Shown here: piece by piece, positions 27,360 to 39,416 of the stretch | Layout of the letters: the number at the start of each line of letters is the position of its first letter | Position numbering within the stretch: the first letter of the stretch is position 1 | Assembly: GCA_016929595.1 (NCBI GenBank) | Contig: JAFGIN010000224.1 | Location: 1 to 39,799, forward strand | DNA length: 39,799 nt | Reading direction: 5' to 3' | Source of the DNA: Chitinispirillaceae bacterium | GTDB lineage: Bacteria; Fibrobacterota; Chitinivibrionia; Chitinivibrionales; Chitinispirillaceae | Made by a program: the position numbers and the translations under genes | Notes under the pieces: generated by a model | Told to the model about the DNA's origin: nothing | What the model saw: the letters and a program-made list of their open reading frames with translations, nothing else | Database searches by the model: none

Positions 27360-28610
27360 ATGAGAACAAATAAAGTCTGTATTATTTCTAAGTACGTATA
27401 TCCAGATGACACCAGACTATGCCAGCAGATTAAAGTACTGAATAGATTCAATGTTTCTTGTGATGTTTTGTGTTTAAAAAGAATTGAACAGGAAAATTTT
27501 GAATCTCTCAGTAATATCAGAATTTTTCGTATTAACAGAATCAAATTAATTAAAAAAAACTTATTCAACTATTTAATAGATACATTAACTTTTATGATTA
27601 CTGCTTTTACCAAACTTTGTTTTTTATCAATTAAAAATTCTTACAGAATAATAGTAGTGCATACATTACCAGAATTCATTGTGCTTACAGCTTTTTTTCA
27701 CAAATTATCAGGTTCTGCGATTGTACTTGATGGCAGGGATCTTTCAGTCGATCTTATCGGATCAAGATGGCCAGGATATATCAATCGTATTCTTAAACAA
27801 ATAGCCATACTTGTCGAAAAGATAGTTGTAAAAACTTGTGATGAAATAATTACTGCCAGCAGTGGTTTTAAAAAATCTTTACTTTTAAGAGGCGTACCAG
27901 AGGAAAAATTAACTGTTCTTTTAAATACCGCAGATGAAGTGATATTCAAATACGTTGAAAATCATGAAAATGAAATTATCAGTGAAAAAGCCAGTTTAAT
28001 ATACCATGGGACAGTATCCGAACGTTTCGGAATAATAATTGCTGTAAAAGCAATGGATTTAATCCTTAGGCAAATTCCTTTTAGTGTACTGCACATTTAT
28101 GGCATGTATAATCTCAGATACAGAAATACCATTGAAAGGCTAATACAAAAGTTGAACCTGGAAAATAGTGTCATTCTTCATGAGGCAGTACCGCAGAAAA
28201 ACATATATGAGCACATAATTACAATGGATATTGGTGTAGTCCCCTATATGAATGACCATTTCATGAATATTGCTTTATCAACCAAAACTTTTGAGTACGT
28301 AGCCTCAGGATTACCAGTGGTTGCCTCAAGACTGAGATCAACAAAAGAACTATTTAATGATGATTGTATATGGTATACAGAACCTGAAAATCCAGCCGAT
28401 CTTGCTAAAAAAGTTATTGAAGTATGCCTGGATCCTGTAGCACGTGCATACAAAAGGACATGCGCTTTTAATATTTTTAAGAAATATTACACAAGTGAAA
28501 TACAACATAGAAATTATATGAACATTATAAATTATTATATGGATAATGAATATAACATTCCCGGAAATACTAAAAAGAAAGATTTGGTTGACTCGTATAC
28601 ACAACAGTGA
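27360..28610 (+). CDS. GT4-family glycosyltransferase
   Basis: A 416-aa GT-B fold enzyme. The N-terminal Rossmann half has CIISKYVYPDDTRLCQQIKVL and a DGRDLSVDLIGS segment. The C-terminal nucleotide-sugar half has SLIYHGTVSERFGIIIAVKAM and LHIYG, and the GT4-type end motif ALSTKTFEYVASGLPVVAS with the conserved Glu. It would transfer a sugar to a lipid-linked or growing glycan on the cytoplasmic face. AAGGGA lies before the ATG. It is the first gene of the plus-strand polysaccharide run and is much more AT-rich than genes left of 26.4 kb. Donor and acceptor cannot be inferred. Confidence 0.87.
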   Translation: MRTNKVCIISKYVYPDDTRLCQQIKVLNRFNVSCDVLCLKRIEQENFESLSNIRIFRINRIKLIKKNLFNYLIDTLTFMITAFTKLCFLSIKNSYRIIVVHTLPEFIVLTAFFHKLSGSAIVLDGRDLSVDLIGSRWPGYINRILKQIAILVEKIVVKTCDEIITASSGFKKSLLLRGVPEEKLTVLLNTADEVIFKYVENHENEIISEKASLIYHGTVSERFGIIIAVKAMDLILRQIPFSVLHIYGMYNLRYRNTIERLIQKLNLENSVILHEAVPQKNIYEHIITMDIGVVPYMNDHFMNIALSTKTFEYVASGLPVVASRLRSTKELFNDDCIWYTEPENPADLAKKVIEVCLDPVARAYKRTCAFNIFKKYYTSEIQHRNYMNIINYYMDNEYNIPGNTKKKDLVDSYTQQ

Positions 28611-28654
28611 AAGCGTTATATTGATGAGTCTTCTGCGGTCGTTTCCTGAATATA

Positions 28655-28687
28655 AACGGCCTCTTAATTATCGGCATAGTAGTTATC
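28655..28687. repeat. Operon-internal intergenic repeat, copy 1
   Basis: AACGG(C/T)CTC(T/A)TAATTATCGGCA followed by TAGTAGTTATC is shared with 29736-29778, where 11 bp separate the two parts. An inverted pair TCAGAATCGG (28704-28713) / CCGATTCTGA (28751-28760) follows in the same gap. It is non-coding and placed between GT4 and deacetylase genes. Confidence 0.7.
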
Positions 28688-28703
28688 TTGATCGCTGTCG
28701 GTA

Positions 28704-28760
28704 TCAGAATCGGGATCTGTCCTCAATTACAGTACTTTTCGATACCGATACCGATTCTGA
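28704..28760. repeat. Inverted repeat TCAGAATCGG/CCGATTCTGA
   Basis: Perfect 10-bp arms flank a 37-bp interior that also contains GATACC direct repeats able to pair with GGTATC in the left arm. It lies in the 206-bp gap after the GT4 stop. It may attenuate transcription, or it may be part of a dispersed repeat. Confidence 0.55.
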
Positions 28761-28816
28761 AATGAGTTTTATTAACCCTACAATAATATGTAAATTCTGA
28801 TTTTTGTGAAGAAATT

Positions 28817-29698
28817 ATGAATCCCAAAATTAGATTTGACAGGTTGATTACCCTGGTTTTAAATGTTTTAAAAACTCCGCAGAGAAATGATCACATACCT
28901 GTACTGATGTATCATTCTGTAACCAACCGTATAACAAATACCAGACCATATTATAGTACTGAAATATCAACTTTAAAATTTGAACGGCATCTGATTTTTC
29001 TTAACGATAATAATTATCGTGTTTATTTTTTAAAGGACATTAAAGATCTCTTGAATTTTACGCGTAACGATACACATAAAAAGTATGTCATCATTACCTT
29101 TGATGATGGTTATAAGAATTTTTATGATAATGCATTCCCTTTATTGGCAAAACACAATATACCTGCAACATTGTTCGTTCCATCAGGGTTAATACCAGAG
29201 TCCGGATATGGTCAATTTGAAGGAGCACACCTGATGAACTGGGTGCAAATAAAGGAATGTACTGTTCAACAATTAATTGACATAGGTTCACACAGTCTTA
29301 TGCACAATCGTCTGACAGAGCTCAATATCGACATGCTAAAACAGGAATTATCTCAATCGAAATCAATTATAGAGAACAACATACAGAAGGAAGTCACATC
29401 ATTTTCATACCCGTTTAGATTTCCTGATGAAAACCAATCTTTTATTTCCCTGTTGTGTGCCCTGTACAAAGAATCCGGATATACCATTTCGGTTACAACC
29501 CGTATTGGAACAGTTCGCAGAGGTGATAATTTGTATATTTTAAAAAGAATACCAGTTAACGAATATGATGATCTGAAATTATTTAAAGCTAAATTAGAGG
29601 GAAGTTATGACTGGCTATATTCATTGCAATACCTGTTTAAAATAATGAGATCATTACAGATAAATAAAAAAAAATCCCCAACTCTTGAGAATCAGTAA
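28817..29698 (+). CDS. Polysaccharide deacetylase (NodB/CE4 type)
   Basis: A 293-aa protein with the CE4 motifs in order. TFDDGYKNF carries the catalytic and metal-binding Asp pair (residues about 96-104). A HSLMH metal-binding HxxxH and a SYPFRFPDE segment follow. HIPVLMYHSV at the N-terminus is typical of the surface-glycan deacetylase/poly-GlcNAc deacetylase branch. There is no clear signal peptide, so the location is uncertain. It would remove N- or O-acetyl groups from a glycan or its precursor. The ribosome binding site is weak. It lies in the middle of the glycosyltransferase run. Confidence 0.88.
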   Translation: MNPKIRFDRLITLVLNVLKTPQRNDHIPVLMYHSVTNRITNTRPYYSTEISTLKFERHLIFLNDNNYRVYFLKDIKDLLNFTRNDTHKKYVIITFDDGYKNFYDNAFPLLAKHNIPATLFVPSGLIPESGYGQFEGAHLMNWVQIKECTVQQLIDIGSHSLMHNRLTELNIDMLKQELSQSKSIIENNIQKEVTSFSYPFRFPDENQSFISLLCALYKESGYTISVTTRIGTVRRGDNLYILKRIPVNEYDDLKLFKAKLEGSYDWLYSLQYLFKIMRSLQINKKKSPTLENQ

Positions 29699-29735
29699 TG
29701 AACACAAAAAACATGAATTTTTTTGTTCTGATATT

Positions 29736-29778
29736 AACGGTCTCATAATTATCGGCACTTTTTTCGATAGTAGTTATC
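29736..29778. repeat. Operon-internal intergenic repeat, copy 2
   Basis: Same sequence as 28655-28687 with an 11-bp insertion (CTTTTTTCGA region). It is enclosed by TCTCATAA (29741-29748) and TTATGAGA (29790-29797), and CGATAGTAGTTATCG inside forms a short hairpin. It occupies the gap between the deacetylase and the next glycosyltransferase. Confidence 0.7.
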
Positions 29779-29820
29779 GTGGCCTTTGTATTATGAGATA
29801 GTTAACAACAAGGAATTATC

Positions 29821-30699
29821 ATGAGAAAATATGTTTTGATAACTCCGGCAAAAAATGAATCCGTACATATCGGCAAAACGATTACTACTGTAGATAATCA
29901 GACAGAAAAACCACATAAATGGATAATCGTAAACGATCATTCACGTGATTCAACTGAAGATACCATCAAAAAATCCATAGGTGAAAAACCATATATAGTT
30001 TATGTAAATAACACCTTACCTCAGGAAATTGGTTTCGCTTCAAAAGTCCAATCATTCAACCTCGGATATACTTTAGTTAAGTATGAAGAGTTCGATTTTA
30101 TTGGAAATCTTGATGCAGATGTATCATTCGAAAAAAGTTATTTCAAGAACGTAATGGATTTGTTTGAGAGCAATAAAAAGTTGGGTATTGCCGGGGGTAG
30201 AGTTCATGAAATCAAAAATGAACGCTGGCTTCCACACCAATCAAGCACAAACAGCGTCGCGGGTGCAGTTCAATTTTTCCGCCGTTCCTGCTTTGAACAA
30301 ATAGGTGGTTTTATTCCAATGACAATAGGTGGTGAAGATTCAGCCGCTGAAATAGTTGCTCGTTCTCAGGGTTGGAAGGTGTTTACTGATAAGAGCCTCA
30401 ATGTTTTTCATCATAAAAAAATGTTAACAGGAAATTCAACTGTTTTTGCTGCAAGATTTAAACAGGGTATGAGTAATTACATTTTGGGGTATCATCCCCT
30501 TTTTCATTTTTTGAGTTGTATTTCAAGAGTTACTGAAAAACCTTATATAATAGCATCAACTGGATTAGCAATTGGATTTTTATCAGCATGGATAAGAAAA
30601 ATGGAAAGAAAATTATCTGATACTACCATTGAGCACCTCCGGAGAGAACAATTAAAGAGGATTAAACAAATTTTTTCATTTAAAACAGACACTGAATAA
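29821..30699 (+). CDS. GT2-family glycosyltransferase
   Basis: A 292-aa GT-A enzyme. It begins VLITPAKNESVHIGKTI, with WIIVNDHSRDST (nucleotide binding) and the DxD metal motif NLDADVSF. The acceptor/catalytic region FRRSCFEQIGGF...IGGEDSAAE carries the GGED-type Asp. A single hydrophobic stretch near the C-terminus (IIASTGLAIGFLSAWI) may attach it to the membrane. AAGGA lies 7 bp before the ATG. It is followed after 13 bp by another GT2 gene, so the two are probably co-translated. Confidence 0.88.
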   Translation: MRKYVLITPAKNESVHIGKTITTVDNQTEKPHKWIIVNDHSRDSTEDTIKKSIGEKPYIVYVNNTLPQEIGFASKVQSFNLGYTLVKYEEFDFIGNLDADVSFEKSYFKNVMDLFESNKKLGIAGGRVHEIKNERWLPHQSSTNSVAGAVQFFRRSCFEQIGGFIPMTIGGEDSAAEIVARSQGWKVFTDKSLNVFHHKKMLTGNSTVFAARFKQGMSNYILGYHPLFHFLSCISRVTEKPYIIASTGLAIGFLSAWIRKMERKLSDTTIEHLRREQLKRIKQIFSFKTDTE

Positions 30700-30712
30700 T
30701 CCTGGAACTGAT

Positions 30713-31693
30713 ATGCAACCGCCATTTGATGTATCAATAATTATAATAAATTGGCATTCAAAACACTATCTCCGTAAGTGTCTGGAAAGTATAAACAACA
30801 CATGCAGCTGTTTATGTGTTGAGATCATTATAGTTGACAATGCCTCCTATGATGGTTGCATCGAAATGTGCCGAAGCTGTATTTCAAATATCAAAACACT
30901 CCAGTTGTCTGCAAATCATGGATTTGCTGCGGCAAATAATGCCGCTGCTTTTTTAGCGACTGCACCACTACTTCTTTTTTTAAATCCCGATACAGTACTG
31001 AATAATAACGCTGTTAATGAATTAATCAATGCATTTAAAACGATCAAACATCTGGGTGTAGCCGGCCCCAGGCTTCTCAATGGTGACAAAACGCTGCAAA
31101 CATCCTGTGTACTGCCTTATCCAGGAATATTACGGCAAATACTGGAATTTGAATGGCTTATTCAGAAAACGCCAAAATGGAATTTCTGGGGTGTTAAAGG
31201 GTTGTATGAGAATTCCGGACCAGTACCTGTTGAGGCCGTTTCCGGTGCTTGCCTCATGATTAAAAAAGAAGATTTCGAATCAGTAAATGGATTCAGCTGT
31301 GATTACTTTATGTATTCTGAAGATATTGATTTATGTCACAAAATGAGAATGTATGGAAAAAAAATTTATCATATACCTGATTCAAATGTTATTCACTTTG
31401 GTGGCGGCTCAACAGAATCAACAAAAAACTCAAATTTTTCAATCATTTTAATGATATCTGCCAGTTACTTGTTCCAAAAAAAATTTTTTGGGATTTACAG
31501 AGCAATCTTGTTCAGAATGTCTATCTCAATTTCTTCTGTGATAAGGTTAAGTACCGGATATATCCTGAATTCAATATTAAAAATAGATAATTCAAATACT
31601 TTAAATAAATGGAAAGCGTTACTACGCTGGTCGATAGGATTTGAAAATTGGGCTGAAAAAACACATAAAGATTTAATTCAATATAAAGGATAA
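30713..31693 (+). CDS. GT2-family glycosyltransferase, rhamnosyltransferase-like
   Basis: A 326-aa GT-A enzyme. It starts VSIIIINWHSKHYLRKCLESI, then IIIVDNASYDG, an AANNAAAFLAT block and LFLNPDTVL, the NPD form of the DxD motif seen in rhamnosyl/galactofuranosyl-type enzymes. A later VSGACLMIKKEDF...YFMYSEDIDLCHKM segment carries the catalytic ED. No transmembrane segment is obvious. It sits between the first GT2 and the polymerase-like gene, 7 bp before the latter. The sugar specificity is a guess from motif style. Confidence 0.88.
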   Translation: MQPPFDVSIIIINWHSKHYLRKCLESINNTCSCLCVEIIIVDNASYDGCIEMCRSCISNIKTLQLSANHGFAAANNAAAFLATAPLLLFLNPDTVLNNNAVNELINAFKTIKHLGVAGPRLLNGDKTLQTSCVLPYPGILRQILEFEWLIQKTPKWNFWGVKGLYENSGPVPVEAVSGACLMIKKEDFESVNGFSCDYFMYSEDIDLCHKMRMYGKKIYHIPDSNVIHFGGGSTESTKNSNFSIILMISASYLFQKKFFGIYRAILFRMSISISSVIRLSTGYILNSILKIDNSNTLNKWKALLRWSIGFENWAEKTHKDLIQYKG

Positions 31694-31700
31694 AATTAAA

Positions 31701-33005
31701 ATGGATGAAACCGCAATTCTAAGTTTAAATCCATTTAGTATGTCATTGTTAATGCTTCTTTCTATTTGCATATTGTTTCTTAATGGAGTATGGGTAACAT
31801 TACCTTTGCTGATAAGTGCATTTTACATTACCTCCGCGCAAGGCGTGGAAATCGGATTCGCATCACTATATGTTAGCAGAATCCTGTGTTTACTCTATCT
31901 GGTAAGATTTTTTATACGAAATGATTTTAAGCGTATTAAAAAAATCAATACTATTGATAAATTAATGATTGTGTTTATAATGGTGTACAATACGATGGTT
32001 TACTTTCAAAAGAACAACGATGGTTTTTATATTAATAATATTGGTAGATCTATCGATATAGTAATGACTTATTTATGCTTCAGATTATTCATTCAAAAAA
32101 TTGAGGATCTGGAAAAGCTTATAATATCAATGTTAATAATGGCGATTCCTATTATGATTCTTATGGTTTACGAAAAAATAACCGGTTACAATGTTTTATC
32201 TTTTTTGGGAGGTGTGCCTGAATATTCCGCAATAAGAGAAAATGTTATACGGGCACAAGGACCTTTTCAGCATCCAATAACTGCAGGAACTACAGCCGGT
32301 ACATTAATTCCCCTATTTTTTTATTTTCTATATCCTGCACGCAAATATGTTCTTCTGTCTACTTTAGGTATAATTGGAACTATTGCCATAATCTATTCCA
32401 CAGGTTCCAGTGGTCCTATAATGACAGCTCTCTTTTCATGTATCGGACTGGCGGTCTGGACATTACGGGATAAAATGCGCCTTGTCAGGTATTCACTAGT
32501 TTCAGCTTGTATTCTATCTGAAATTTATATGAAAGCACATTTCTGGTACATTTTAGCGAAAATAGACCTTGTAGGTGGAAGTACGGGGTACCATAGAGCT
32601 GAGTTGATAACACAAGCTATTAATCATATAAATGAATGGTGGTTGGTGGGTACGAATTATACCCGGCATTGGATGCCGACAGGCGTTAGCTGGAGTGTTA
32701 ATCAAACTGATATTACAAATATGTATATCAGTATGGGGGTTTTAGGCGGATTGCCGCTTCTAATACTATTTATTCTCATAATTGTTATTGCATTTCAATA
32801 TGTAGGAAAAGCAATACAATCTTTTAATTCATATGAAATGAAAAGTAAGTTTTTATTCTGGGTTCTTGGAGTGACACTATTTTCCCATATTTTGACGTTC
32901 TTTACAATATCTTATTTTGATCAGATAGAGATTTTTTATTATATGCTTATAGCATCAATATCCTCACTTTTTACAAATGCTCGAAATTCGAAAAATTCTT
33001 TTTGA
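31701..33005 (+). CDS. O-antigen polymerase/ligase-like membrane protein (Wzy/WaaL family)
   Basis: A 434-aa protein with about ten to twelve predicted hydrophobic helices across its length, for example LLMLLSICILFLNGVWVTL and LGGLPLLILFILIIVIAFQY. A longer hydrophilic loop lies in the second half (HFWYILAKIDLVGGSTGYHRAEL...MPTGVSWSVNQTD). This is the layout of Wzy polymerases and O-antigen ligases, which join glycan repeat units or attach them to a carrier in the periplasm. AAAGGAT lies 9 bp before the ATG. It is the last plus-strand gene of the run. Ligase and polymerase cannot be separated from sequence alone. Confidence 0.75.
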   Translation: MDETAILSLNPFSMSLLMLLSICILFLNGVWVTLPLLISAFYITSAQGVEIGFASLYVSRILCLLYLVRFFIRNDFKRIKKINTIDKLMIVFIMVYNTMVYFQKNNDGFYINNIGRSIDIVMTYLCFRLFIQKIEDLEKLIISMLIMAIPIMILMVYEKITGYNVLSFLGGVPEYSAIRENVIRAQGPFQHPITAGTTAGTLIPLFFYFLYPARKYVLLSTLGIIGTIAIIYSTGSSGPIMTALFSCIGLAVWTLRDKMRLVRYSLVSACILSEIYMKAHFWYILAKIDLVGGSTGYHRAELITQAINHINEWWLVGTNYTRHWMPTGVSWSVNQTDITNMYISMGVLGGLPLLILFILIIVIAFQYVGKAIQSFNSYEMKSKFLFWVLGVTLFSHILTFFTISYFDQIEIFYYMLIASISSLFTNARNSKNSF

Positions 33006-33192
33006 GCAAACTTTTTTTGCACATCTAATGAAATATTTCAAACCGATCGGAATTAACGCCAGGATCCTGACGTACTTTATTTGACTGTTTTAAGTTGGTT
33101 AGCGGCGTATCTTGTCAAAATTGGATCTCTTCTTCTGGTACTCTTGCTTCAGATTTCTTATTTCTATGCGACATATTTTTGCGACAATGAAA

Positions 33193-34152
33193 TCATGTGA
33201 TTTTACGAAGATAAAATGAACCTGGATTCCTTTCAGGTTCAAGATATGGCGCAACACTTTTTAATCTTTCGTAATGATTATGATGTAAAAAATTAAGAGC
33301 ACCGATAATTTCCCAACTACTATTATGTGTAAGAAATGCTTCCAGTAAATATTGTTCATTCCAGAATCTCACATCCTCTTGTAACCATTTTTTCAGATAA
33401 TTCTTAGGTGAAAAAATATCATGTACATGTACTATTACTCCACTGTGAAGTGTTGGTAATATTTCAAGATATTCAAAGTTCACATCACCTTTTGGTCTAA
33501 TAACATGTGAAGAATCGATAAATAGTATATCACCTTCCTTTAGTTGAGAAAAAAATGATATCTCTATATCTTCAACTTTTTTTCTTATAACTGAAACACC
33601 TGTTTTTTCCAGCCATGCCATTTCGTATGGCTCGATACACAAGTGTTCACACGCGTAGTCTGGATCATCAATGCAATTTTTCTGAATAGCTTTTATTGCC
33701 ATTAACGTTGAGTTTCCACTCCCTATTTCAAAAATTCTTTTTGGCCTGACTGCACGAATAAGCTGATACCAGTATTCTGCATCTCCATAAGAAAACAAAT
33801 CATTATTCAAATAAAACTGTATACTTACTTGCTTCTCTTTTGAGAGTTCAATGAGTTCATGAGCGAAAATAAATTTCTCAAGCATTTTCAATTGCCCTTC
33901 CACATTCCAATTAATTCCAGTTAATTTCCGGTCTTGTTCGAAGTCTGCGCGTAGAAAGCGGTTATCGAATTGGGGCTCATAGTAATGCTTTCTGATCGGA
34001 AAAACTCCTATATTCAATAGTACATTTTTACATATAGGTAATTTTTGAAAACCCATTATCCTAATTATCTTTAGTAATATTGCAGCAGGAAACACAAATG
34101 GCAGAAATATGATATCTATAATTATGAAAGAAATCTCATCAAACTTTCTCAC
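33193..34152 (-). CDS. Class I SAM methyltransferase with N-terminal hydrophobic segment
   Basis: The 319-aa protein starts at GTG 34152 (AGGAG 6 bp upstream) and overlaps the Wzc-like gene end by 14 bp. An N-terminal hydrophobic stretch (FIIIDIIFLPFVFPAAILLKI) is followed by GVFPIRKHYYEPQFDNR. The SAM fold follows, with motif I RIFEIGSGNSTLMA, CIEPYEMA, GDILFIDSSHVI and a VHVHDIFSP block. This resembles the Methyltransf_24-type family found in surface polysaccharide loci, where sugar O-methylation may cap chain growth. Acceptor unknown. The 187-bp convergent gap to the polymerase-like gene shows no clear terminator. Confidence 0.78.
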   Translation of the reverse strand: MRKFDEISFIIIDIIFLPFVFPAAILLKIIRIMGFQKLPICKNVLLNIGVFPIRKHYYEPQFDNRFLRADFEQDRKLTGINWNVEGQLKMLEKFIFAHELIELSKEKQVSIQFYLNNDLFSYGDAEYWYQLIRAVRPKRIFEIGSGNSTLMAIKAIQKNCIDDPDYACEHLCIEPYEMAWLEKTGVSVIRKKVEDIEISFFSQLKEGDILFIDSSHVIRPKGDVNFEYLEILPTLHSGVIVHVHDIFSPKNYLKKWLQEDVRFWNEQYLLEAFLTHNSSWEIIGALNFLHHNHYERLKSVAPYLEPERNPGSFYLRKIT

Positions 34153-36541
34153 AAAGAACTCCTTTTAATTGTCTGTTTGCATGAAAACCAGTTGTATACC
34201 TCAAAAACGACTTACTTTTTGTAGCAGTATCAACCGAGTCAACCAGAATAATTCCAAGAATTTTCTCTTTTAAAAATGGGTATTCATTAATAAGCCTGTT
34301 GATCTTAGACGAGTCTATTTTACCAGCTTTAATAACAATAACGCAAGATTGCACTTCTCTGCTTAAAATATAGGAATCCGATACCATAGAAAGTGGTGGT
34401 GAATTAATTATTACCAATTTGTAATTTACTATTAGCATCTTCATGAGTTCGCTTAATTGTGTACTTAGTAAAATGTTAGTAGGATTTTTACAGGCGGTCC
34501 CAGAAGATAACAAATGTAAATTTTGTACATTTGTATACCTTATTGTCTCTTTTAAATTTGATTCAGACAGCGCCAACTCCTGGTGAAGAAGATCTGAAAA
34601 ACCAGGTATTTTAGTGCATTTAAAATGATCAAAAAGTTGTCCATGCCGAATGTCACTATCTATAAGGAGTGTTAATTTGTATTTTTGAGCAGCCACAACG
34701 GCAAGATTAGCTGCGATAACTGAACAGTTTTCATCATTATCATAACTTGTGATCAACAATGATTTTGAATTCCGAATTTCGAGATAACTATCTATTTTTG
34801 AATATATTTTATTGTATGTTTGATGTAAAAAAGACTCTTTTAATTGCTGAGTATTATCGATGATATGAACGTTTGAACTTTTTTTGTTACAACTTGAATT
34901 CTTACAGTCTTTTTGTAATGGTATTACATCCAAAATGGGGGCGGTACAAAATTTATAAAGATCATCTATTGTATGTAGTCTCTTATCAAAATAATCGTAA
35001 ATAATGGCTGGTCCTATCGATATTAGTAAACTTAGTAAAATACCTGATGTTAAATATATCATCAGCCGTTTGATATTAATTTCTGGAACAACCGGGATAG
35101 AATAATCCAGAATATACATATCTGACATGATGGACTTATCGGCCATTTTAGCCTGATTATAATTACTTAAGATTTGAGAATATAATTCTGAATTAATAAG
35201 CTGTTGACGCAATAAAGCAGCATATTGCATTTCTTTTTCCGGAAGGTGGTTCAAGTTTTTCAAAGCTGCATTTTTTTCAGTGCTGACATTGTGAATTTCT
35301 TTCTTCTTGTTTTCAATGAAGTTATTTAATAATAACATCGTTTTTGTATTTATCTGTTCTAACTTTTGATTATTTTTTTTGACAAGCCTATGTCCCGGTG
35401 CGTATTCGTTTGATTCTAATGCAAACTTTTGCTGCAAAAGGTAATTATAATATTGCTGCAATCCAATTGCACCTGAAACATCTTGACTTCCAAGAAAATA
35501 CAGAGCTTCAATTATTGCCTGTGATCTCGATTCAAAATTGTTTATTGTCAGCTTTTTTTCTAAATCAGATGCCTGTCGCAATTTTTTGTTTTTTTCAAAA
35601 ATGTCATTATCCAGAACTGGAAGTCCCGAAATAATTTCATGAATATTGTTATTTAAAGAAACATGGGGATTTTTAACTCTAAATTTTTTAATACTGTCTT
35701 CATTTTTTATAAGTTGATTTGTTGCTATTACCAATTGGTTCTCTAAAACACCAATGGTTTTCAACATTTTTTCTTTAAGAAAACGGATATTTTCCGAGAT
35801 ATAAAGATCAGCGATAAGATTAATCGTTTTTGATGATAGTTGAGGGTCTATTCCTGTCAATACAATTTCTATAATATTTTGATTCGAAGGGTCCCTTTCG
35901 GAAATATGCTTTATTTCGATATTTTTTCTTAATTCTTTGACTGCATCATCTTTTGTAACTATAGTAAATTTAAAATCAAATGGATTGTTCATATATTCAT
36001 TTGTTAACACCATTTCTACACCCGGTATAATCAGGGTATTCTTACCATTAAGCCTACAGCTTTCAATATATGTTACATCCCGTGATTTTGGTTTACATAA
36101 AGATACCGTATATAAATGTTCCGATGAGTTATCGACATTAATTGAATAAGTACCTTTTTGCGCAGAAGAATCCAGGTGTATATATGAAACAACATCTGAT
36201 CTGCATATATTCGATAAAACAAAATTTAATCTAAGCGAATCAATGACATTAATCAAAAAGTTTCTTGATTTAATAACAATTGATGAAACTGATTCGTTCT
36301 CAGAATATTCAGGAAAAAAAGAATAATCAATTTTTTGATACGTTCCAATAAGTACGTTGGAATCGATTTTCGGTTGTATCTTGTTATATTTTGATAAAAT
36401 TACAAACCATAAAATAAAAATTACTGGAACAGTGAGCAGAATGTACCTTTTCCATCTTGAAAAGCAGGTACTGAAATGCTTGATCCAATAAGAACAATCT
36501 TGTTTAATAATATGATCATTATCATTTACACTTCTTTCCAT
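34139..36541 (-). CDS. Wzc-like polysaccharide co-polymerase with degenerate tyrosine-kinase domain
   Basis: An 800-aa protein with two transmembrane segments (residues about 33-50 and 493-516). The long coiled-coil-rich periplasmic part includes the GNVR-type region and a PVVPEINIKR proline motif before the second helix. The cytoplasmic BY-kinase fold runs about residues 540-775. Its ATP site is broken. Walker A, normally GxGKST, reads DENCSV (Lys replaced by Cys606). Walker B, normally IIDTPP, reads IINSPP (Asp replaced by Asn713). Walker A' is kept (LLIDSDIR). The C-terminal Tyr cluster is reduced to one residue (Tyr782). It probably controls chain length or export without autophosphorylation. 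AGGA precedes the ATG. Confidence 0.88.
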   Translation of the reverse strand: MERSVNDNDHIIKQDCSYWIKHFSTCFSRWKRYILLTVPVIFILWFVILSKYNKIQPKIDSNVLIGTYQKIDYSFFPEYSENESVSSIVIKSRNFLINVIDSLRLNFVLSNICRSDVVSYIHLDSSAQKGTYSINVDNSSEHLYTVSLCKPKSRDVTYIESCRLNGKNTLIIPGVEMVLTNEYMNNPFDFKFTIVTKDDAVKELRKNIEIKHISERDPSNQNIIEIVLTGIDPQLSSKTINLIADLYISENIRFLKEKMLKTIGVLENQLVIATNQLIKNEDSIKKFRVKNPHVSLNNNIHEIISGLPVLDNDIFEKNKKLRQASDLEKKLTINNFESRSQAIIEALYFLGSQDVSGAIGLQQYYNYLLQQKFALESNEYAPGHRLVKKNNQKLEQINTKTMLLLNNFIENKKKEIHNVSTEKNAALKNLNHLPEKEMQYAALLRQQLINSELYSQILSNYNQAKMADKSIMSDMYILDYSIPVVPEINIKRLMIYLTSGILLSLLISIGPAIIYDYFDKRLHTIDDLYKFCTAPILDVIPLQKDCKNSSCNKKSSNVHIIDNTQQLKESFLHQTYNKIYSKIDSYLEIRNSKSLLITSYDNDENCSVIAANLAVVAAQKYKLTLLIDSDIRHGQLFDHFKCTKIPGFSDLLHQELALSESNLKETIRYTNVQNLHLLSSGTACKNPTNILLSTQLSELMKMLIVNYKLVIINSPPLSMVSDSYILSREVQSCVIVIKAGKIDSSKINRLINEYPFLKEKILGIILVDSVDTATKSKSFLRYTTGFHANRQLKGVLCEKV

Positions 36542-36955
36542 TTACAAATCCTTTAACATTGACTAAACAACTATGATTTATGGATAAATATCAACCATCG
36601 GCACTGTTATAATTAACTATTGAGGAAATGCACTTCAATGTTAAGATACATTTTTAAAAATTATGCAGCTGGATACAAAACCTTTAAAGTTTTTTTGATA
36701 CATCATTGAAAAGACATTGATTATTATTTAATGGAACAAAGACAATGCCAATTCAAAGTATTTTTAATACCAAATTGCATCTTATAGTCGGATACCATTT
36801 AAACCAGATATTGCAGACATTAGGGAATTATGTTATACTAATTCAAGGCAATCAAAATTTGATATTTTGTTAAATATAATGAACTGAAAAGGAGTGATTA
36901 TTTCTAAAACTAAATTACATTTTTGAGTATACAATTTTTTTATTTCTATTTATGA
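36542..36955. other. AT-rich upstream region between divergent genes
   Basis: This part of the 703-bp gap between the divergent Wzc-like and secreted-protein genes holds no open frame of note. It is AT-rich with several A/T tracts, as expected of promoters, but I could not assign boxes. The right part of the gap is occupied by the 158-bp element and the leader of the next gene. Confidence 0.5.
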
Positions 36956-37113
36956 GTCCACTCTAAAAAGCTGATAAATATGTTTCTCCCGCTTATCGCG
37001 GGATCAACATGATCGTTTTTTTAGCTAAATTAAGGCTCTTTCTGCTCATCCCGCCACTGCGGGATACCGCAAAAGGCGGGACGAAATGTTTTTTCTACCT
37101 TTTTAGAGTGGAC
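36956..37113. mobile_element. 158-bp MITE-like element with perfect 15-bp terminal inverted repeats
   Basis: GTCCACTCTAAAAAG (36956-36970) is exactly inverted at 37099-37113 (CTTTTTAGAGTGGAC). Inside are three GC-rich hairpins in otherwise AT-rich DNA: TCCCGC/GCGGGA around 36988, TCCCGC/GCGGGA around 37053, and CCGC/GCGG around 37066. It has no coding capacity. Size, perfect ends and internal structure fit a non-autonomous transposable element mobilised in trans. A clear target duplication was not seen; TTTAT occurs on both flanks. Confidence 0.8.
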
Positions 37114-37244
37114 CCATTTATAAATATCCAGTATTTGCTATCTGAAATTAACCGGGTGACTAATACAGTTATTTATACAGACCAAAAAGTTACTAAATTT
37201 TATGCGAATATGTTAATTGCATAGCTATTAAGGAGTTAAAATAT

Positions 37245-39416
37245 ATGACAAATTTTATAACAATATCTTTTATACTGGTCATTGTTCTTAGTTGTCCGTC
37301 AAGATGTAGTGTTTTGTCTCAAATTATTGTTTCACCTGGTACCGAAATTGAAGTTGGAGAAGAGGTACAGTTTAAGATCCCATTAAATATACCTTTCAAC
37401 GATACAGATGCCTCGCTGTATGAGTGGGATTTTGGTGATGGATATTTTATGAAAAAAGGATTTCCATCACCGTCTCATTCAAATTCCGGACCTACATGTA
37501 TCCATTTTTTTATGAAACCTGGAAAATTTACTGTAAAAGTATTTAAAACCACGAATACCGGGAGAGATTCAAGTACAACTGTAGTAAATGTAAAAGGGCA
37601 AAGTCCGATTCCTGGATTTGAACTATGGCATGCGCCTTTCCATGCAAGAATAAGTCAACACATTTATGTAAGAATACCATTAAATATTGCATTAAACAAG
37701 GCAAACAAACTTAAAATCACAATTAATGGTAGTAATGGATATTCAAAAATTCTTCTTAATAAACCATCTCTAAAAAGCGAAGAAAAATTTTTACTGAAGA
37801 ATAGTGAATTACCAAAAGATAGCTATACACTTAGAGCAGATCTTTATAATGCAGAGGATAAAATTATTTCTTATCTCAAGGAGAAATTTGATAAACCATA
37901 CGACGGAATACCTGCTGTTGGAATAAATGAGAACAATGCACTTTGCATAAATGGAAGACCCACTTTTTTAGTTACAGGTTTTTTGTTAAGTGACTATGAA
38001 TACACAGGATGGGCCGAAAATTGTGTTAATGCTGGAATTGGTGTAGGATATTATGAGAACCATTCTTTAAATACATGGAAAGACTATCTTTCCACATGTA
38101 AGAGTTATGATCGATTTGTCATCGGGCCAATTCACCGCTGGGAAGGTGGCGGCGGTTTTTGTAATGAAAGAAACTCAAATATCGAATCCATTGAACAATA
38201 TGTTAATTCTACTAAAGATGAATCTTCACTACTCATGTGGTCATGGAAAGATGAGCCAGATTTAGGTGGCCGTGATATAATGATACCCCCGCCGGTTTTA
38301 GCATCGTGGACCAGTTCTTGCCATAAAATCGATCCAAATCACCCTGTCTGGATTAATTTAACAGGAGGCGACTACTTAACTTATTGGAATGAAATGGGTG
38401 GTAATGGTACGGTTTTCGACTACATAGGGAGCGATTCGTTATATGGCGGGAAGAAACATTTTCCAGTAGATTTTATTGGTTTTGATATATATCCACTGGA
38501 ATCGAGCACCTGGGCCCGTTTGAAAAACAGAAGGGTTATGGAAGAATTTGCCTTATCATACGACAGATTAATTGAGAGGAATTACAATCTGATTCCAATT
38601 TCGGGTTTTGTTGAATGTCAAGAAATAGAGAATCTGGAAACTCCGGTACCAACACCAGATCAAATCTTGATGGAAGCATGGATTACTGTAATACATGGGG
38701 CAAAAATGGTATCATGGTTTCATTATTTTGGTAAGAGACCTCAGGCAAACATCGAAGCAATGAATCAGTTTTGTTCACAAATGAAAACTTATGGAAACAT
38801 TATCCTCTCTGCACCTTCAAACCGTATAATAACTGATGATGCCAACGTACCAGGGAAACGAGTGGATTTCATTTCAAGGGATACTATAGTTAATCATTAT
38901 GGTCAGTCAGATACATGTACCTATGTATTTGCTGTCAGAGTAACTGAACCAGAAGGTAGTGATATATTTGTACAAGTTAAAGAACCAGAAACAATCAATG
39001 TCACCTACCATGTAAGTGGAATAAGTGAAATGAAAATATATGATGTAAATAATAATCGTTGGATAACGCCGGATAAGAATTCATTTTCTGATACACTCGG
39101 AAAGTGTTCAAACCGTATCTATATTATTTCAAAAAATGGATTTAATGCTGATAAGGATAAAACATTTAAAGCCATAGAAAGTAAAAACCATAAAATAGAA
39201 AACACTGCTGTTATTAACTTACAACCATTTAAAAATACGATCGCGATACCAACAGATATTATACAAAATATAAGGATATACAATTTAAAAGGGACTGTCG
39301 TTGGAAAAATGATGAAAAATTCTTCATCTATTATTTGGAATGGCAAATTAAGTACCGGAACATATCTTATATCGGATAACCATCAATTTAATTTGAAATT
39401 ATCTTTGATCAATTAA
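37245..39416 (+). CDS. Secreted PKD-domain protein with TIM-barrel glycoside-hydrolase-like domain
   Basis: A 723-aa protein. It has a signal peptide (residues about 1-21, ISFILVIVLSCPSRC) and a PKD domain (about 25-117, YEWDFGDG and PGKFTVKVF). A beta-rich region (about 120-222) is followed by a TIM-barrel-like domain (about 225-510) opening ALCINGRPTFLVTG. WSWKDEPDL (Glu337) and SGFVECQE (Glu457 or Glu460) look like the acid/base and nucleophile of clan GH-A enzymes. The last about 70 residues (IRIYNLKGTVVGKM...SIIWNGKLSTGTYL) resemble a type IX-style sorting domain. AAGGAG lies before the ATG. I cannot name a GH family. A role in cleaving a glycan, perhaps the one made next door, is inferred. 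Confidence 0.7.
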   Translation: MTNFITISFILVIVLSCPSRCSVLSQIIVSPGTEIEVGEEVQFKIPLNIPFNDTDASLYEWDFGDGYFMKKGFPSPSHSNSGPTCIHFFMKPGKFTVKVFKTTNTGRDSSTTVVNVKGQSPIPGFELWHAPFHARISQHIYVRIPLNIALNKANKLKITINGSNGYSKILLNKPSLKSEEKFLLKNSELPKDSYTLRADLYNAEDKIISYLKEKFDKPYDGIPAVGINENNALCINGRPTFLVTGFLLSDYEYTGWAENCVNAGIGVGYYENHSLNTWKDYLSTCKSYDRFVIGPIHRWEGGGGFCNERNSNIESIEQYVNSTKDESSLLMWSWKDEPDLGGRDIMIPPPVLASWTSSCHKIDPNHPVWINLTGGDYLTYWNEMGGNGTVFDYIGSDSLYGGKKHFPVDFIGFDIYPLESSTWARLKNRRVMEEFALSYDRLIERNYNLIPISGFVECQEIENLETPVPTPDQILMEAWITVIHGAKMVSWFHYFGKRPQANIEAMNQFCSQMKTYGNIILSAPSNRIITDDANVPGKRVDFISRDTIVNHYGQSDTCTYVFAVRVTEPEGSDIFVQVKEPETINVTYHVSGISEMKIYDVNNNRWITPDKNSFSDTLGKCSNRIYIISKNGFNADKDKTFKAIESKNHKIENTAVINLQPFKNTIAIPTDIIQNIRIYNLKGTVVGKMMKNSSSIIWNGKLSTGTYLISDNHQFNLKLSLIN

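Follow-up and report, generated by a model that had tools for sequence, protein, structure and literature searches.

The protein of 800 residues encoded on the reverse strand of a Fibrobacterota contig is confirmed as a full-length polysaccharide co-polymerase (PCP) of the Wzc/PCP-2a type. Its kinase-like half no longer has the catalytic set and is predicted from its sequence to be dead. It is a real BY-pseudokinase PCP of the single-chain type already known, and a new example of that type from another phylum. The window, that is, the whole stretch of DNA analysed, is 39799 bases long and corresponds to the entire contig C81 of a 6.6 Mb Fibrobacterota MAG. The gene and its parts are as follows:

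34139 to 36541, reverse strand: coding sequence, 800 residues, PCP-2a/Wzc-type polysaccharide co-polymerase with a BY-pseudokinase domain
34982 to 36541, reverse strand: residues 1-520, comprising TM1 (about 31-52), the periplasmic part and TM2 (about 490-518), from elements of the AlphaFold2 model and alignment to Wzc chains
34202 to 34864, reverse strand: residues 560-780, cytoplasmic BY-kinase-like domain with the fold kept, from TIGR01007, pLDDT and the structural match to 4jlv
34796 to 34825, reverse strand: position of the EX2RX2R (oligomerisation) motif, degenerate, HQTYNKIYSK
34721 to 34747, reverse strand: position of Walker A, residues 599-607, degenerate, SYDNDENCS (canonical SLxxGEGKS)
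34646 to 34669, reverse strand: Walker A' motif, kept, LLIDSDIR
34394 to 34417, reverse strand: position of Walker B, degenerate, LVIINSPP (canonical VIIDxPP), with Asn713 for Asp
34142 to 34246, reverse strand: C-terminal tail with one Tyr, the Tyr cluster lost, and a low-confidence predicted helix at 770-796

The open reading frame is real, as is its description in the earlier note as a full-length, 800-residue Wzc homologue. In profile searches, Wzc family models match the protein and TIGR01007 (BY-kinase) covers residues 575-779 above its cut-off (E 4.3e-35), while the GNVR profile gives a weak match to residues 443-513 that falls below its own cut-off. Sequence comparison with the PDB returns Wzc chains at 1e-22, and the alignment of the motif columns is secure given these matches and that of TIGR01007. 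The AlphaFold2 model and the Wzc chains agree on the PCP-2a architecture, in which two TM helices flank a large periplasmic domain and are fused to a cytoplasmic BY-kinase fold. Mean pLDDT of the model is 82, with values mostly of 83-93 in the kinase-like domain, and this domain superposes on CapA1B1 (4jlv; Z 31.9, rmsd 1.8 Å over 226 residues) and on the kinase domain of E. coli Wzc (Z 31.8). Structure comparison also aligns full-length Wzc octamer chains with residues 18-788, and the pTM of 0.45 makes the relative placement of the domains in the model uncertain. Sequence and predicted structure together describe a BY-kinase fold devoid of both the catalytic motifs and the Tyr tail, and hence a pseudokinase.

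The earlier note had described a degenerate Walker A, an Asn in place of the Walker B Asp, and a tail with a single Tyr. Alignment upholds all three, and the motif coordinates given there agree with the aligned positions. Where the closest relative reads SLNSGEGKS, the protein has Cys606 in the column of the Walker A Lys, both loop glycines are replaced, and only Ser607 is kept; Asn713 occupies the column of the Walker B Asp, and Tyr782 is the sole Tyr in residues 766-800. Of the 25 aligned full-length homologues, 24-25 have the Gly and Lys of Walker A and the Asp of Walker B. Two further features had escaped mention, namely the loss of EX2RX2R (HELFRSLRAK in the nearest intact homologue, L006) and the retention of Walker A'. 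Frameshift or misalignment at Walker A was rejected, as the alignment to the nearest homologues is gap-free across the motif. Another lysine filling the P-loop role, which had been named as a possible refutation, was looked for; residues 594-619 contain no Lys, so that no substitute is available in the loop.

The two nearest homologues share 37% and 36% identity with the protein, one of them coming from the same family as its genome, and the three form one group with 100% bootstrap. All motifs are intact in L006, and Walker A, A', B and EX2RX2R are intact in L007, whose tail is cut by a contig end. About 90 BY-kinase-like domains were surveyed, of which nearly all came from the order and a few from other parts of the phylum. 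The Walker A lysine is absent from four of them (the present protein, L040, L126 and L128), and the present protein is alone in having lost Walker A, Walker B, EX2RX2R and the tail together. Since the kinase is intact in the nearest two homologues and in nearly every other homologue of the order, its loss is specific to this lineage. A search for homologues with the same substitutions, as the earlier note had proposed, found none among the homologues from 40 genomes belonging to the order and 167 belonging to the phylum, nor in genome contig scans, and viral contigs that were searched held no relatives.

Other departures from the intact kinase were observed within the order. L040/L064 (G008:C476:18278-20581, reverse strand) is a second kinase-dead co-polymerase, from another genome of the family, with TNEGSTT at Walker A, IDANLRSG at Walker A' and one tail Tyr; the same genome also carries L006. 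The Walker A lysine is replaced within EGTDL in L126 (G005:C81) and QGTTS in L128 (G033:C401). L005 (G000:C134, in the same genome as the protein described here) and L125 (G003:C167) keep the Walker A lysine, their tail tyrosines are gone, and their Walker B Asp has become Tyr or Cys. PCP and kinase are encoded as separate adjacent open reading frames in L010, L013, L026, L027 and L028, and fused forms occur elsewhere in the order.

In a neutral simulation, more than 90% of runs had acquired at least one stop by 2% substitution. The seven lost motif residues require at least 12 nucleotide changes within 21 nt, and the probability of at least 12 changes at these seven codons within the span of neutral survival is about 4e-14. 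A single event replacing one motif would not account for losses in three motifs that lie apart. That 800 codons remain open despite at least 12 motif substitutions indicates that selection maintained the frame during or after the loss of the motifs. At the same time, constraint is weaker across the whole gene. Only 58 of 86 conserved PCP positions are kept (67%, with 28 lost) and 30 of 51 conserved cytoplasmic positions (59%, with 21 lost), compared with 79-96% and 69-98%, respectively, in other sequences. The branch leading to the protein is the longest in the tree and about five times those of its sisters in both halves. Faster evolution of the kinase half alone was rejected, as the ratio of cytoplasmic to PCP branch length (1.47) is like those of the sisters (1.64 and 1.26). 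With one in three conserved PCP positions lost and a long branch in both halves, PCP function may be altered too. The earlier proposal that the loss was selected, rather than due to gene decay, thus holds in part: the frame has outlived neutral expectation, but selection for losing catalysis does not follow, since the losses are spread over both halves and catalytic or motif sites are not significantly over-represented among them (Fisher p = 0.16).

The gene lies among others for glycan synthesis and modification, with methyltransferases among the further genes nearby:

33193 to 34152, reverse strand: Methyltransf_24-type methyltransferase, downstream neighbour overlapping the PCP gene
31701 to 33005, forward strand: Wzy_C/O-antigen-ligase-like membrane protein and candidate polymerase partner, from a Pfam match that falls below cut-off
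27360 to 31693, forward strand: glycan genes, namely a group 1 glycosyltransferase, a polysaccharide deacetylase and two GT2 genes

Third-position G+C is 0.25-0.30 in the seven measured cluster genes (27360-39416), and two housekeeping genes on the same contig have 0.41-0.44. As regards a Wzx/Wzy-type cluster, glycosyltransferases and a Wzy-like gene are nearby, while neither Wzx nor a phosphoglycosyltransferase was recognised among the scanned genes of the window, the contig ending at 39799. No gene for OPX, the usual partner of PCP-2a, is present in the 39799-base window, and OPX is encoded directly upstream in most homologous loci, including those of both nearest relatives. L017 and L039 are intact kinase co-polymerases with no OPX nearby, so loss of the adjacent OPX does not serve as a rule for the cause of kinase loss. 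Elsewhere in the genome, intact BY-kinase PCPs occur on contigs C9, C107 and C36, which answers the earlier question of a separate intact kinase, and the genome also carries four genes of the LMW-phosphatase family, none of them on C81. The C9 protein, L002, belongs to the same subfamily as the pseudokinase PCP, with 24% identity to it, and when the genome is compared with the nearest relative's OPX, only the OPX on C9 matches.

The protein probably acts independently of phosphorylation as a structural scaffold of the co-polymerase. It would serve as the PCP-2a of a Wzx/Wzy-type polysaccharide pathway, in which productive ATP binding and tyrosine phosphorylation by the kinase-like domain would have been lost. 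Its TM and periplasmic helices would form a putative oligomer around the polymerase and determine the length of the chains, with this role and the choice of polymerase likewise putative, and the pseudokinase domain would form a cytoplasmic scaffold by analogy with what has been proposed for EcpK and HfsB. Counted in favour are the joint loss of Walker A, Walker B, EX2RX2R and the Tyr cluster with the fold kept, the survival of the frame beyond neutral expectation, the glycosyltransferase and Wzy-like neighbours, and the precedents of EcpK, HfsB and PssP2. Counted against are the long branch, the lost PCP positions, the lack of an OPX gene in the window and the failure to recognise Wzx or a phosphoglycosyltransferase among its scanned genes. 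Phosphorylation of Wzc is, moreover, reportedly essential for assembly of the group 1 capsule in E. coli, a result attributed to Wugeditsch in 2001, and this also counts against a scaffold.

The main rival, considered unlikely, is that the protein would be a regulatory partner in hetero-oligomers with a kinase-active PCP, for example L002, and would tune chain length, as has been suggested for PssP2 with PssP. PssP2 binds this second PCP in heterocomplexes, and the two may have opposite effects (PMC4182512). The genome does offer intact candidates on three contigs, one of them in the same subfamily and with the sole match to the nearest relative's OPX, but identity to L002 is low, EX2RX2R is lost, and the gene sits in a glycan cluster of its own with a Wzy-like gene. 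Relaxed selection, whereby the pathway would be redundant or its export partner lost, the gene heading for loss and the motif changes a product of weak overall constraint, is quite improbable. The exceptional branch length, the low retention of conserved positions in both halves and the missing OPX neighbour would all fit, yet the codons stay open although the gene has changed well beyond what neutral drift permits, and many of the PCP positions are retained together with Walker A' and the fold. It is highly improbable that the protein is a non-canonical ATPase or kinase in which the Asp residues of Walker A', Ser607 and a distant lysine would bind nucleotide, with Tyr782 or other residues phosphorylated. 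LLIDSDIR and Ser607 are indeed kept, but the loop has neither lysine nor its glycines, the Walker B Asp is gone, and in Wzc the K540 mutation by itself abolishes phosphorylation (PMC8285477). The same mutation gives stable octamers (PMC12881504).

Losses similar to those described here recur within the order in L040, L126 and L128. A broader but improbable reading is that kinase-dead single-chain PCPs originated independently several times in one Fibrobacterota order from close kinase-active homologues, here with loss of the neighbouring OPX. Wzc would then have changed repeatedly from an exporter cycled by phosphorylation into a static chain-length scaffold resembling Wzz. The protein adds an independent Fibrobacterota single-chain BY-pseudokinase PCP with intact homologues at 36-37% identity, and the related active and inactive PCP-2 proteins (the present one, L006 and L040) allow phosphorylation-free PCP-2 function to be compared.

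Overall architecture and fold are those of the active BY-kinases E. coli Wzc (PCP-2a) and S. aureus CapAB (PCP-2b), whereas the catalytic motifs and Tyr cluster of these proteins are lost. The earlier note's kinase-dead Wzc stands as a prediction, but the unusual mechanism ascribed to it was overstated, as PCP-2 proteins linked to pseudokinases have already been described (PMC12004946; PMC4182512). EcpK and HfsB are BY-pseudokinases that act with PCP-2 proteins and have been proposed as scaffolds (PMC12004946). EcpK/EpsV of Myxococcus xanthus and HfsB/HfsA of Caulobacter resemble the present case in having a PCP-2-linked pseudokinase without catalytic motifs or Tyr tail, but in those systems it is a protein of its own rather than part of one chain, and EcpK is missing several elements of secondary structure (PMC12004946). 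The present protein, by contrast, is predicted to have the complete BY-kinase fold and retains Walker A'. The single-chain PCP-2/BY-pseudokinase variants of Cuthbertson et al., SMc01795, Mlr8439, VV1_2305 and BCETI_6000729, as cited in PMC12004946, share the arrangement of PCP and pseudokinase in one polypeptide, a likeness drawn from that citation rather than from their sequences. PssP2 of Rhizobium leguminosarum is likewise a single-chain PCP in a genome with a second PCP; its kinase-like domain has neither Walker motifs nor a Y cluster, and disruption of PssP2 shifts the size distribution of EPS (PMC4182512). It differs in its length of 586 residues, in the absence of Walker A' as well, and in its phylum (PMC4182512), and PssP2 is known from its mutant phenotype and interactions, whereas the Fibrobacterota protein is known from its sequence and a structural model.
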